Assembly (NCBI GenBank): GCA_000752675.2
Contig: LM994626.1
Coordinates: 738,666-802,665 of the forward strand
Direction of reading: 5' to 3'
Source of the DNA: a bacterium OL-1
GTDB lineage: Bacteria; Actinomycetota; Coriobacteriia; Coriobacteriales; Atopobiaceae
Length of the DNA: 64,000 nt
In this document: positions 30,206-52,298 of the stretch, piece by piece
Layout of the letters: each line of letters opens with the position of its first letter
Numbering within the stretch: position 1 is the first letter of the stretch
The notes under the pieces: model-generated
Told to the model about the DNA's origin: nothing
Databases searched by the model: none
Seen by the model: only the letters and a program-made list of their open reading frames with translations
Translations under genes and position numbers: made by a program

Positions 30206-31297
30206 TTAGCCCTGCCCCTCGGCCTGCCCCTGGGAGCGTTGCGGCTTGGGGACGTCGATGCTCCCCGCGCCGGGGGACCAGTACCCGAGCTTGATTCCGC
30301 GCTGGTAGACGGCGACTGCCTTGGCAAAGTAGCCACGCGCGTTAAGGTGGGTCCAGTCCGAGCGCAGCTGCTTCGAAATGCACCCCAGGCGCGCATCCGC
30401 CACGTCCTCTGGAGTTGGCGTGAGGCCCGAGATCTCGAGCCCGTGCTTGATGAGAAAGACGCGCATGTTGATGAAGTGGTCGCCAAAGGCCTCGCGAAGC
30501 GCCGTCTCCCAGCTGGTCTCGCGCGGCGCGTAGTCATCCGTGAAGGGGACCTGGCTTGTGTCACCAACGGAGGTGCCCGGGTCATCGGTGTCGCCCAAGA
30601 TGAGATAGTCGTCGCAGCCGGAACGGTCGATCATCGCGCGGTACTGGTCGATGAGGACCTGGTAGTCGCCATCCCAGCCGCCGTTGCTTCCTATCTCGAG
30701 CACGAGGATGTCGCCCGTGTGCTCCTCGCCCTCGTCAACGACCTCGGGGTCTATGTGCCTGATGGGTTGCTCGCCCTCGTCCGCGGGAGCGTCCTCGTCC
30801 GCGGGCGCGTCCGTATCCGAATCGTCGTTTTCGCCCTTGTCGTCAGAGTCACTGGTTGCGTCCGCGCCGTCGTTGTCGAGCGTTGCCCACGGGAGGGCTC
30901 CCTGCATGACGGCAATCTCCTCCGAGGTCGCCCCGGCAACACCAAAGTTGTACGTGTCGAGCCCCGTGAGTTGCGAGAGTACCTGAGGATATGACTGGTA
31001 GCTGGTGTCATACAGCTCGTCATCCGCTAGCGAGACAAGCGCCCCGGGGTCATCGTCGGCACCCACGCCCTGGGTCATGCTGTCGCCCCAGCAGACAATC
31101 TCGCGCGTGTCATCGTCGCTGGTGCCGGGGTAGAAGCGCCAGTCGAAGTCGTCCACGTACGAGACGTCCCCCTCAGCCTGCTGGGTACTCTCCTCGTCCG
31201 CATCTACCTGGGAGGCATCGCTCGTGGAGCTCTGTTCGCAGCCAGCAAGAGACGCCGCCAGCACAATGGCGGCAATCGCAACACCAAGCCTTCTCAC
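30206..31297 (-). CDS. SGNH-hydrolase-like lipoprotein with acidic insert
   Basis: A 363-residue exported lipoprotein (lipobox LAASLAGC). SGNH/GDSL blocks appear in order: CWGDSMTQG (Ser), FGVAGATSEE (Gly), LEIGSNGGWDG (Asn) and SDWTHLNARGY (Asp-x-x-His), so it is probably a catalytically active esterase or deacetylase acting on cell-surface glycan. An Asp/Glu/Ala-rich insert of about 60 residues separates blocks II and III. The preceding intergenic stretch carries no recognisable partner. Confidence 0.85.
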   Translation of the reverse strand: MRRLGVAIAAIVLAASLAGCEQSSTSDASQVDADEESTQQAEGDVSYVDDFDWRFYPGTSDDDTREIVCWGDSMTQGVGADDDPGALVSLADDELYDTSYQSYPQVLSQLTGLDTYNFGVAGATSEEIAVMQGALPWATLDNDGADATSDSDDKGENDDSDTDAPADEDAPADEGEQPIRHIDPEVVDEGEEHTGDILVLEIGSNGGWDGDYQVLIDQYRAMIDRSGCDDYLILGDTDDPGTSVGDTSQVPFTDDYAPRETSWETALREAFGDHFINMRVFLIKHGLEISGLTPTPEDVADARLGCISKQLRSDWTHLNARGYFAKAVAVYQRGIKLGYWSPGAGSIDVPKPQRSQGQAEGQG

Positions 31298-31425
31298 AAG
31301 CGCACCTCCCCTTCGCGCGCATTCTCTCCAACACCCAGAAGGATAGTCGCGTGAAAGGGAGGCGTAATGAAATCACACGGTACGTACCCGTAGCCAAAAA
31401 CGCCTGTCACGGGCGCCAACCGCAG

Positions 31426-31995
31426 CTACATCTCGCTGCCAGGCTCGGCTTGCAGCGACGCTGCGTCCGCGTTCTTCTCGGCCTTGGACTCACCCACGTG
31501 CGAGAAGCACTTGGCAAACACCAGGCGCGAGGTGGGGCCAGCCGCAAAGAGGTTCCACAGGAGCGCCATCGGGAAGTTCTTGATGAGCGTCCCCACCCAG
31601 ATGGCGGGGAGCTGCGCCACGGGCATGCCCGCAAGAATCACGTTGAAGAGGATGCTTGCAACCAGGCTCATCGTGGGGCACATGATGAGGACGGTGCAGC
31701 ACGAGCGAACGGTGCCCTGGATAAAAGCACTGTCGCGCTTGGGGTCGGTGAGGCGTGCCGCCAGCGCCGCGCCGCCGCGCGTGCCCCACAGGTTCGAGAA
31801 CAAGAACACGAAAAGCCACATGTACGAGGCCTCGACCAGAGCGCTAGGGAACACGTCGTTGGTCATGTTGGAGAAGCCTCCGGGCATGGTAGGGACGCCC
31901 ATCTTCCAGGCCACGTTGTAGACCTCCATCCCGTAGGCCATGGTGATGGACATGAGAATCCCAAAGATGACTCCCTGTGCCTTGTTCTTAGGCAT
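31426..31995 (-). CDS. DUF2798 membrane protein
   Basis: A 189-residue protein with four predicted membrane helices and an N-terminus (MPKNKAQGVIFGILMSITMAYGM) that closely resembles the protein at 42934. Function unknown. It is preceded by a leader that ends in an intrinsic terminator, so expression is probably controlled by read-through. Confidence 0.8.
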   Translation of the reverse strand: MPKNKAQGVIFGILMSITMAYGMEVYNVAWKMGVPTMPGGFSNMTNDVFPSALVEASYMWLFVFLFSNLWGTRGGAALAARLTDPKRDSAFIQGTVRSCCTVLIMCPTMSLVASILFNVILAGMPVAQLPAIWVGTLIKNFPMALLWNLFAAGPTSRLVFAKCFSHVGESKAEKNADAASLQAEPGSEM

Positions 31996-32040
31996 GCCTT
32001 GCTCCTCTCCGCCGCGCTTGCCCTGGGGTTCGCGTCACAC

Positions 32041-32162
32041 AAAAAAGGCGTGCGGCCGCCCACCGAGGGCAACCGCACGCTTTGCTGACTACACCTTTTC
32101 GCCGCGGAGGATGGCATTGTCGGGCATCCGGCTCGCGACGGCTTTGCGCTACACGCAGGAAA
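32041..32162 (-). ncRNA. Structured 5' leader with intrinsic terminator (riboswitch-like)
   Basis: On the minus strand, GCGTGCGG and CCGCACGC (in 32047-32080) form an 8-bp stem with a 17-base loop followed by six Ts, 46 bases upstream of the DUF2798 start. Upstream lies a G+C-rich stretch with GCGCAAAGCC and the pairing GGATG/CATCC. A weak promoter (TTGTCG and TATGGT) is placed so the RNA begins near 32162. The layout aptamer plus terminator fits an attenuator or riboswitch, but I cannot match it to a known class. Confidence 0.5.
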
Positions 32163-32300
32163 GACCATAGCACGCACGCGACGCGGCGCGACAAAATCAA
32201 CATGTGGCGAGAGGGGCGACGATAAGGCCCGTCGCCTGCGCCGGCAGCATACGGCCGCGCAAGTCGCCGGAAGCACGCTTTCCGCAGCAAAACCCTTAAA

Positions 32301-32400
32301 AACAGCCCCTCCGGAGACGAATTGTCACCGGAGGAGCCAAGTTGGATGCAATTCTCGCCAAAAGGGGGCTTCCGGCAACTTTGCTTCCGGCAACAACCAC
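32301..32400. repeat. Family A repeat, copy 3 (diverged)
   Basis: CCTCCGG-CCGGAGG hairpin (32307-32333) followed by GGATGCAATTCTCGCCAAAAGGGGGCTTCCGGCAAC aligned to the second unit of copy 2 in the same orientation. It fills the space downstream of map; a shorter related string CTTCCGGCAAC follows. Confidence 0.7.
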
Positions 32401-32415
32401 CGGGCAGCTTGCCCC

Positions 32416-33300
32416 CTACCAGGACAGCAGCTCGTAGCCGTCCTCGGTGACCACCAGCTGGACTTCCCACTGCGCGGAGTCCGAGCCGTCTGCCGTCCGC
32501 ACAATCCACCCGTTGTCTTTGTCGGTCGTGATGTCGGGCGCGCCGGCGTTGACCATGGGCTCGATGGTAAAGCACATGCCAGGCACCAAGATGGGACCGG
32601 TGCCCTTCTCGGAGACAAAGCTCACAAACGGGTCCTCGTGGAACTCGCGGCCAATGCCGTGGCCGCCGTACTCCTCGACCACCGTGAAGCCGGCCTCACG
32701 GCACGGCTCGTTCACTGCCGCGCCCACGTCGCCCAGGTGGCCCCAGGGGCGCACGGCGGCAAGGCCCGCCTCCACGGACTTCTTGCACGTCTCTACCAGA
32801 CGGCGGCGCTCGTCAGAGACCTCGCCAATGCAGTACATGCGGCTGGAATCCGAGAAGTACCCGCCCTTGATGGTGGACATATCGACGTTGATGATGTCGC
32901 CATCCTGAAGGACGTCCTTCTCGTTGGGGAAGCCGTGGCAGATGACGTCGTTGATCGAGGTGCACACGCTATAGGGGTAGCCCTCAAAGTTGAGGTCGGC
33001 CGAAACCGCGTCGTGCGCCGAGAGATACTCCTCGACCCAGCGGTTGATGTCCATGGTCGAGACACTCGCGGCAATGTGCTCGCCAACGTAGTCGAGGACG
33101 CCCATGTTGACGGCGGCCGACGCCTTGATGCCCTCGATGTCTGCGGCGGTCTTGAGGAGCGAGCGGGGCAGGACCTCCTCGCCGTCGAGGTACAGGCGCT
33201 CCATGCGCTCGTCCGCAGGGCCGTGGCACTTCTTGTACTTGCGACCGCTCCCGCACCAGCAGGGGTCGTTGCGCCCGGGAACTGGCAGCTTGTCGAACAT
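32416..33300 (-). CDS. map: Methionine aminopeptidase with N-terminal SEC-C zinc motif
   Basis: A 294-residue type I methionine aminopeptidase that trims initiator methionine from new proteins. The N-terminal SEC-C motif RNDPCWCGSGRKYKKCHG binds zinc and may help ribosome association. Catalytic metal ligands are in NVDMSTIKGGYFSDSSR, HGIGREFHEDP and TIEPMV. The usual SAQFEHT near the end reads SAQWEVQ, so one conserved H-T pair is replaced. Monocistronic. Confidence 0.93.
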   Translation of the reverse strand: MFDKLPVPGRNDPCWCGSGRKYKKCHGPADERMERLYLDGEEVLPRSLLKTAADIEGIKASAAVNMGVLDYVGEHIAASVSTMDINRWVEEYLSAHDAVSADLNFEGYPYSVCTSINDVICHGFPNEKDVLQDGDIINVDMSTIKGGYFSDSSRMYCIGEVSDERRRLVETCKKSVEAGLAAVRPWGHLGDVGAAVNEPCREAGFTVVEEYGGHGIGREFHEDPFVSFVSEKGTGPILVPGMCFTIEPMVNAGAPDITTDKDNGWIVRTADGSDSAQWEVQLVVTEDGYELLSW

Positions 33301-33641
33301 GGCGATTCTCCCATCGGGTCGAGTTTGGTTAACGTTTCAACGATACCCTCGCGGGACGCCTGCCGACGCCGGGATTGCAAGTTAGACGAATCTAATCACA
33401 CCGTTTCGTGAATGGATGTCGGGGCCGCCAAGGCGCCCGACACGCGGCTGATGAAAAAACTCAGTCATAACGTCGTAATCCATTCTGCCCTGCCCAATCG
33501 GGGACATTCGCGTTGGTTGGTAGCGACATGACCTCACGAGCAGCGTCGGAAAGAAGCGGACGCAAGTTTGTAAGCACTCGGAGAGCATTGTAAAGTATAT
33601 ATACCTGACTTTAGGTTCATATCTATCTCGGGAGGCACCGC
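33301..33641. other. Intergenic region with the MerR autoregulatory site
   Basis: No gene is supported. The 3' end holds AT-rich promoter-like sequence (TTGTAA at 33588, TATATA at 33596) and the operator ACCTGACTTTAGGT at 33603-33616, whose exact complement occurs at 44277-44290. The rest shows nothing recognisable. Confidence 0.55.
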
Positions 33642-42610: not shown

Positions 42611-42933
42611 ACCGCCCCAAGCACAGGCATCGCTTCAAAGGAATCTATCGGCGAGTATAGCCGCTGACCAGGTAGATTGCATCACCAATAGCACCCATTG
42701 CGAGACGCGCATCAGTACCACCAAGCCGATAATGCTTGCGGAGAATTGCTCCATAAGGGAAATCAGACGCTTTTCGGCTGTCTGTGAAAAGTTTGTCCGC
42801 ATCCCGATATCGCATCGAAATTGCTGGCGCCTGGCATGTTACGGTCATTGGCACATATCCATTGCAGGTACTCTTGGAAACGCACACCCTCCCGGTGATA
42901 ACGAACAACACTGCATCAACCCGGGAGGTCTAC
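42611..42933. other. Intergenic region without recognisable features
   Basis: Divergent region between fructosamine kinase and the second DUF2798 gene. It is more AT-rich than its surroundings; open frames here lack ribosome sites and similarity. Presumably holds two promoters, none matching consensus well. Confidence 0.4.
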
Positions 42934-43437
42934 ATGCCGAAAAACCGCGTCCAAACAGCCATTTTCACCATCATGATGGTCCTCGTCATGGTGTATGGGA
43001 TGATTTGCTACAACATCACGCTCGAGGTCGGCGGCCTATCCAACTTCGTCTTTCTCGAGGCCCTACCCGAGCTTGCTTTTATGGGACCAATCGCATTCCT
43101 TCTCGATATGCTTGTTGTCTCCCCCATTGTGTCGCGTCGCGCGGTCAAGGTGGTTGGGCCTCACCCTCAGACCCCCTTTGCGATGGTCGCTGCCATCTCT
43201 GCGCTGAGCGTCCAGCTGATGTGCCCGCTCATGAGCCTTGCCGCAACGCTCATCATCAAGCGCCCCGCCAACGTCGACATCCTTGCAACGTGGATCCAGA
43301 CTACCGTCCTCAACCTTCCCATGGCGTTCTTCTGGCAGTTCTTTGTTGCCGGTCCCGTTGTCCGCGGGGTCTTTGGTGCCCTGGTCGGCGAGAAGCGCGA
43401 GGCCGCAGACAGCGCTGCAGAGCAGGTCGCGCAATAG
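42934..43437 (+). CDS. DUF2798 membrane protein, second copy
   Basis: A 167-residue protein with four predicted membrane helices, starting MPKNRVQTAIFTIMMVLVMVYGM like the protein at 31426 (MPKNKAQ...). Similar C-termini (LNLPMAFFWQFFVAGP) confirm paralogy. GGGAGG precedes the ATG at 42934. Function unknown; unlike its paralogue it has no leader terminator. Confidence 0.8.
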   Translation: MPKNRVQTAIFTIMMVLVMVYGMICYNITLEVGGLSNFVFLEALPELAFMGPIAFLLDMLVVSPIVSRRAVKVVGPHPQTPFAMVAAISALSVQLMCPLMSLAATLIIKRPANVDILATWIQTTVLNLPMAFFWQFFVAGPVVRGVFGALVGEKREAADSAAEQVAQ

Positions 43438-52020: not shown

Positions 52021-52298
52021 CTCCCGCCACGCTCTGCGCCGGTACGCTTGCCTCCGCCCTCGATCATGCTCGACCCGCATCGCCCCTCTCGAGGTCTCGC
52101 GGTGCGCCTGCGGTAACCGCTCGTGCTACAACAATACGGACATCAGAGATTAAAACACGGTCCCCGTCGGGTAGTCGTGGGCGTGCGGGAGTCCGCATCA
52201 GTAACCTGCCTCCTTGGTTGTCCCTTCTCTGCATGGTCATCTACATTTCAGTAGTAGAAACTAGCCCTAATCATAGACGGTCGAGAGGGGGCTATCGC

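Follow-up and report, generated by a model that had tools for sequence, protein, structure and literature searches.

A putative small orphan cis-regulatory RNA with an intrinsic terminator upstream of DUF2798-family genes in Coriobacteriia and Clostridia

A structured leader with a terminator lies ahead of a DUF2798-family gene in the window, which is the whole 64,000-nucleotide stretch of contig LM994626.1 of bacterium OL-1 that was analysed, and the question is whether this leader is a regulatory RNA and how it would act on the gene. The reading preferred here, with a probability of roughly 0.62, is that the leader, termed type A, represents a new and very small orphan cis-regulatory RNA which would work as an ON riboswitch by transcription attenuation. 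The features of the locus, and those of a paralogous locus, are collected in Table 1.

Table 1. Features of the leader, its gene and related elements in the window
Feature	Position	Strand	Basis or remark
Extended -10 element, TGC TATGGT	32164..32172	-	9 nt from end of best -10 hexamer to GUGUAGC
Core block 1, GUGUAGC	32148..32154	-	at predicted 5' end; 7/7 nt invariant in 35 leaders
Insert hairpin, CGTCGCG/CGCGGCG, inner GGATG/CATCC	32100..32140	-	covaries in 11 long leaders
Second GUGUAG copy	32089..32094	-	leaders with long insert, read from alignment A2
Core block 2, GCAAAGCGUGC, consensus GCAARGCGYRY	32075..32085	-	GCAA.GCG constant in all 35 aligned leaders
Intrinsic terminator, 14-bp stem and six U	32041..32080	-	scan, fold, covariation in homologues
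Shine-Dalgarno sequence, GGAGAGGAG	32002..32010	-	read from sequence
DUF2798-family gene, four-helix membrane protein	31426..31995	-	ORF, homologues, AlphaFold, DUF2798 in divergent relatives
Separate terminator-like hairpin of map, GCTCCTCCGG..CCGGAGGGGC TGTTTTT	32298..32337 (approx.)	-	sequence
Type E leader of the DUF2798 paralogue, P1 GCAG/CUGC, P2 CACC/GGUG, loop CUCCC	42864..42928	+

The DUF2798-family gene comprises 189 codons, and its ATG is located at 31995. Judging from orthologues with 91-95% identity to the window protein, the organism is related to Tractidigestivibacter/Olsenella. No match was obtained when Pfam was searched with the window protein, while relatives 29-36% identical to its family matched DUF2798 (PF11391) above the cut-off, with E-values of 1.8e-9 to 1.1e-6 in the homologues. 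The AlphaFold model was confident (pLDDT 88) and consisted of four long bundled helices; Foldseek returned nothing significant in the PDB for this model, and a sequence search of the PDB with the window protein gave no match. The map gene lies upstream (33300-32416, minus strand), and two terminator-like hairpins were found between the two genes. Since map has a hairpin of its own, the one nearer to the DUF2798-family gene is not simply the map terminator. In another part of the window, an azaaromatic (yjdF) riboswitch was observed at 52139-52241 (plus strand, 60.2 bits), which was the sole Rfam match in the window.

A terminator had been proposed before the gene in a preliminary description of the sequence, and it was indeed identified on the minus strand together with the six Ts (32046-32041), although the stem (GCGTGCGGTTGCCC/GGGCGGCCGCACGC, 32080-32048, with loop TCGGT) has 14 bp instead of 8, and the ATG follows 45 nt further downstream. 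The terminator scan of 31000-33500 yielded 6 sites against 2.2 expected, among which this site was the strongest by far, and the fold of leader plus terminator gave z = -2.0. In the homologues, 93% of cells paired over 13 pairs of the helix, and eight of these pairs were changed on both sides. Its covariation score was 0.481 versus 0.216 in shuffles (0/500), a count that is not a probability because the leader sequences are related, and slid controls gave 0.075-0.139. RNAalifold recovered the same helix independently. Covariation in homologous leaders, on which the preliminary description had made its proposal depend, is thus present in the terminator stem.

Upstream regions of 80 loci encoding orthologues of the window protein were fetched and read. 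The type A leader was recognized in 38 of them, from Coriobacteriia and Clostridia, a count skewed to this gene because the homologues were gathered via it; the motif-first genome scans given below are free of this bias. When 35 leaders from both groups were aligned, 14 core positions were invariant and one was A or G. The 3' part of block 2 is also the 5' arm of the terminator, whose helix starts within this block (AARGCGYRY...). The spacer between GUGUAGC and GCAA(A/G)GCG ranged from 7 to 89 nt across type A leaders, and the shortest leaders were only about 50 nt long from the predicted start to the U tract. Judged from the alignment, this conservation is far more than expected by chance, with invariant blocks in two phyla, and it could be partly due to horizontal transfer of the gene with its leader between phyla.

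The GC-rich stem (GGATG/CATCC, GCCG/CGGC), which had been stressed in the preliminary description, proved to be a lineage-specific insert, while the core consists of GUGUAGC and GCAARGCG. The insert hairpin sits in the spacer between the two blocks and was absent from Clostridia and from shorter leaders within the window's own family; it covaries within that family, and over the whole alignment 12 pairs had two-sided changes. A P1 helix formed from UUGC/GCAA, given by RNAfold for the window leader, was rejected as a general model, as most Clostridial leaders cannot form UUGC/GCAA. Four further leaders (L160, L161, L113 and L116) looked conserved, had a terminator, contained GCAGACAGC and preceded DUF2798-family genes.

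A promoter had been considered plausible, and an extended -10 element was identified, with its hexamer TATGGT at 32169-32164 upstream of the leader; no canonical or convincing -35 was found upstream of the window leader. The best -10 hexamer ended 9-10 nt ahead of GUGUAGC in 29 of 39 type A leaders, and from this near-constant distance the RNA probably begins a few nucleotides before GUGUAGC. For the window, the transcript start was predicted at about 32157-32155, upstream of the terminator and not downstream of it, which had been named as the case that would speak against attenuation. The leader RNA would have about 115 nt.

The blocks come directly after the -10 box, as would be found if a transcription factor recognised them as an operator in the DNA near the start site. 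Such an operator is hard to reconcile with the varying inter-block distance given above and with the covariation, at the RNA level, between block 2 and the distal arm of the terminator, so that this explanation is very improbable. Ribosome-mediated attenuation via a leader peptide was judged more improbable still. Firmicutes are known to use leader-peptide attenuation at resistance and efflux genes, and GUG-UAG might serve as start and stop codons; against it, the shortest type A leaders, inspected by eye, were too tight to hold both a Shine-Dalgarno sequence and an ORF, and contained no evident leader peptide, and UAG was replaced by UGG, UCG or UUG in the related type C described below.

Pairing of GUGU(A)GC with GCGYRY was possible in every type A leader (209/209 cells). 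The three variable partner positions were Y only, R only and Y in 39 of 41, the pattern that obligatory pairing with G, U and G would impose. This helix had one-sided changes only, and it was unstable alone by nearest-neighbour energies; its role as an antiterminator is suggestive. From this instability, the default state should be the terminated one, and the alternative would need stabilising. In the mechanism proposed for the riboswitch, RNA polymerase would start just upstream of GUGUAGC, and the 14-bp terminator would form when the signal is absent, stopping transcription ahead of the gene. When the signal is present, GUGUAGC and GCAARGCG would be held together, then GUGU(A)GC paired with GCGYRY would occupy the 5' arm of the terminator, and transcription could run into the DUF2798 gene. 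The signal would presumably be a small molecule that turns expression ON, and the membrane protein may remove or handle the sensed compound, a role suggested by the related leader type before MATE efflux pumps. As for the attenuator with an aptamer that had been proposed for this site, the covarying terminator, the invariant upstream nucleotides and the fixed promoter distance fit, while ligand binding was inferred.

A covariance model was built from the type A alignment and used for genome scans. The scan of the window's family (140 genomes) gave 21 strong matches (E <= 5.5e-6), which coincided with DUF2798-type genes, the copy in genome G119 being split from its gene by an insertion. In 220 Lachnospiraceae there were 4 matches (E < 1e-6), for which DUF2798-type genes were confirmed by tblastn. 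Exact-pattern scans gave one type A match in the window's genome and matches in 2 of 391 Clostridia genomes, both ahead of a DUF2798-type gene. Long-spacer exact-pattern matches in five genomes (L134, L136-L139) were discarded as chance, with no DUF2798 gene nearby by tblastn. No genes other than DUF2798-type ones were found under type A in the genome scans, and since a single gene family is controlled, the ligand could not be read from gene context. One locus of Olsenella sp. kh2p3 (L040) at first seemed to be without a leader, which was then located some 1.5 kb ahead of the gene; an apparent insertion element with a transposase-like ORF by eye (L040 about 540-1960 / L133) lies in the type A U tract there and parts the leader from the gene.

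The strength of the terminator and the discrete transcript of about 115 nt to be expected would also suit an unregulated partial terminator that sets a low basal level, or a separate 5' small RNA. Invariant nucleotides outside the stem and strict linkage to one family in two phyla would be unexpected in either case, and the blocks hold their position despite the varying spacer, which makes this explanation quite improbable.

Two sibling leaders were recognized among the 80 loci. Type B ([NAGA]AAUAAGUC..GGCGUAG[UCUN] plus a terminator) occurred in 14 and type C ([CAGC-like]GUGUNGC..GCGUAANUCCA[GYUG], within a terminator) in 17, and the helices proposed for both had some two-sided changes in small alignments. 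All 8 type B matches in 299 Lachnospiraceae genomes preceded DUF2798-family genes, six of which belonged to a divergent subfamily, and the two subfamilies under type B shared just 29-36% identity. The type B loci of the two subfamilies (L059, L063, L067, L078 and L140-L147) carried AAUAAGUC..GGCGUAGUCU plus a terminator. For type C, 7 matches were found in 250 Lachnospiraceae genomes, 6 before MATE-family efflux pumps and 1 before a DUF2798-type gene. The MATE-linked loci (L179, L180, L181, L182, L183 and L185) had GUGUNGC..GCGUAANUCCAGYUG in the terminator hairpin, and in four of these six a second similar element was present between leader and gene. Types A and C have GUGUNGC and a similar predicted start in common, and forms that seem to stand between them occur in L068 and as the second element of L183, which suggests that the two types may form one class. 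With type C before MATE pumps and GUGUNGC in common, an efflux or detoxification signal would be the best guess for the ligand. A link between types B and C by circular permutation is unproven. In L162-L166, a hairpin without U tract was observed before DUF2798 paralogues, and its loop GCATAAGTCCAGTTGC resembles type C.

The paralogue at 42934 had been described as lacking the leader, so that the two copies would differ in regulation. It is without a type A leader, of which the genome holds one copy, but it is not leaderless, since it has a conserved, structured type E leader that extends over its Shine-Dalgarno sequence. Type E has a run of invariant nucleotides, its P1 alternates between GCAG/CUGC and ACUG/CAGU, and its P2 apex between C-G, G-C and U-A. 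In 248 Coriobacteriia genomes, 11 matches were found in 10 genomes, only at DUF2798 paralogue positions. The loop CUCCC is complementary to the Shine-Dalgarno sequence GGGAGG of the paralogue and can pair with it, which suggests translational control; type E probably controls translation.

These leaders bear on a further explanation of type A, in which a trans-acting RNA-binding protein would recognise GUGUAGC...GCAARGCG and control the terminator. A protein site would fit short specific blocks separated by a spacer of varying length, and also the control of a single gene family. In the gene-neighbour analysis, the DUF2798-family gene was monocistronic, its neighbours differed between loci, and no regulator gene was conserved next to it. 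In addition, several leader architectures occur before the DUF2798 family and MATE pumps, which are easier explained by several aptamers for one compound. A protein-dependent attenuator is the most serious of the alternatives, and still an unlikely one.

The statement that the leader matches no known class agreed with the Rfam searches. At the gathering threshold, Rfam 15 gave nothing in the leaders of the window and 40 homologous loci, and a permissive search of the window leader gave chance matches only. At gathering and permissive thresholds, no relevant match, guanidine classes included, was obtained for types A, B, C and E with Rfam 15, in which the presence of a guanidine-IV model is uncertain. 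The preQ1-I riboswitch has a very small aptamer adjoining the terminator, but its consensus and genes are different, and type A has no Rfam match. The closest precedent for an overlap of aptamer and terminator is the HMP-PP (thiS) riboswitch, which is compact, controls a thiamin-precursor gene and has conserved nucleotides overlapping the terminator hairpin (PMC6478431), whereas type A has some of its conserved nucleotides upstream of the terminator and matches no Rfam family. The nearest known mechanism is that of guanidine-IV and its variant Gd4v. In guanidine-IV (mepA motif / GGAM-1), a kissing-loop pseudoknot connects two hairpins, and the C. botulinum aptamer measures 88 nt; this riboswitch is a terminator-based ON switch, mostly of Firmicutes, that controls efflux pumps including MATE/MepA (PMC7736828, PMC12186494, PMC11611296). 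Its aptamer lies partly in the terminator and MATE genes are under its control, and here MATE genes follow type C leaders; compared with the described plan, however, the spacer of short type A leaders is only 7 nt and the terminator is their sole hairpin, a first hairpin being absent. The texts consulted on guanidine-IV (PMC7736828, PMC12186494, PMC11611296) contain no mention of DUF2798. The Gd4v motif, an orphan candidate that also relies on a terminator, follows the two-hairpin pseudoknot plan of guanidine-IV and is enriched among gut bacteria from several phyla; its genes are mainly transaminase, also GNAT and MATE (PMC9788692). The association with MATE and with gut bacteria is similar, but type A has neither the two-hairpin pseudoknot nor transaminase genes, and its genes are DUF2798. 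Type C may be distantly related to guanidine-IV/Gd4v. In the literature search, none of the texts covered contained both DUF2798 and riboswitch, and the family is absent from the main text of two large motif surveys.

A broader reading was held only tentatively. DUF2798 may be a new efflux or detoxification family, and one gut-relevant compound may be sensed by unrelated or rearranged aptamers, acting through termination in types A, B and C and through translation in type E. Types A and C would then share one ligand-binding core (GUGUNGC + GCGU) placed on opposite strands relative to the terminator, as the bridging leaders L068 and the second copy in L183 suggest. If this broader reading were true, knowing the ligand would establish both a new riboswitch superfamily and the function of DUF2798. 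If the riboswitch reading of type A is true, it would be a previously undescribed candidate whose core of about 25 nt in the shortest form would be among the smallest known, tied to a membrane protein family of unassigned function that gut bacteria from two phyla possess, and its sibling leaders would link it to MATE pumps.
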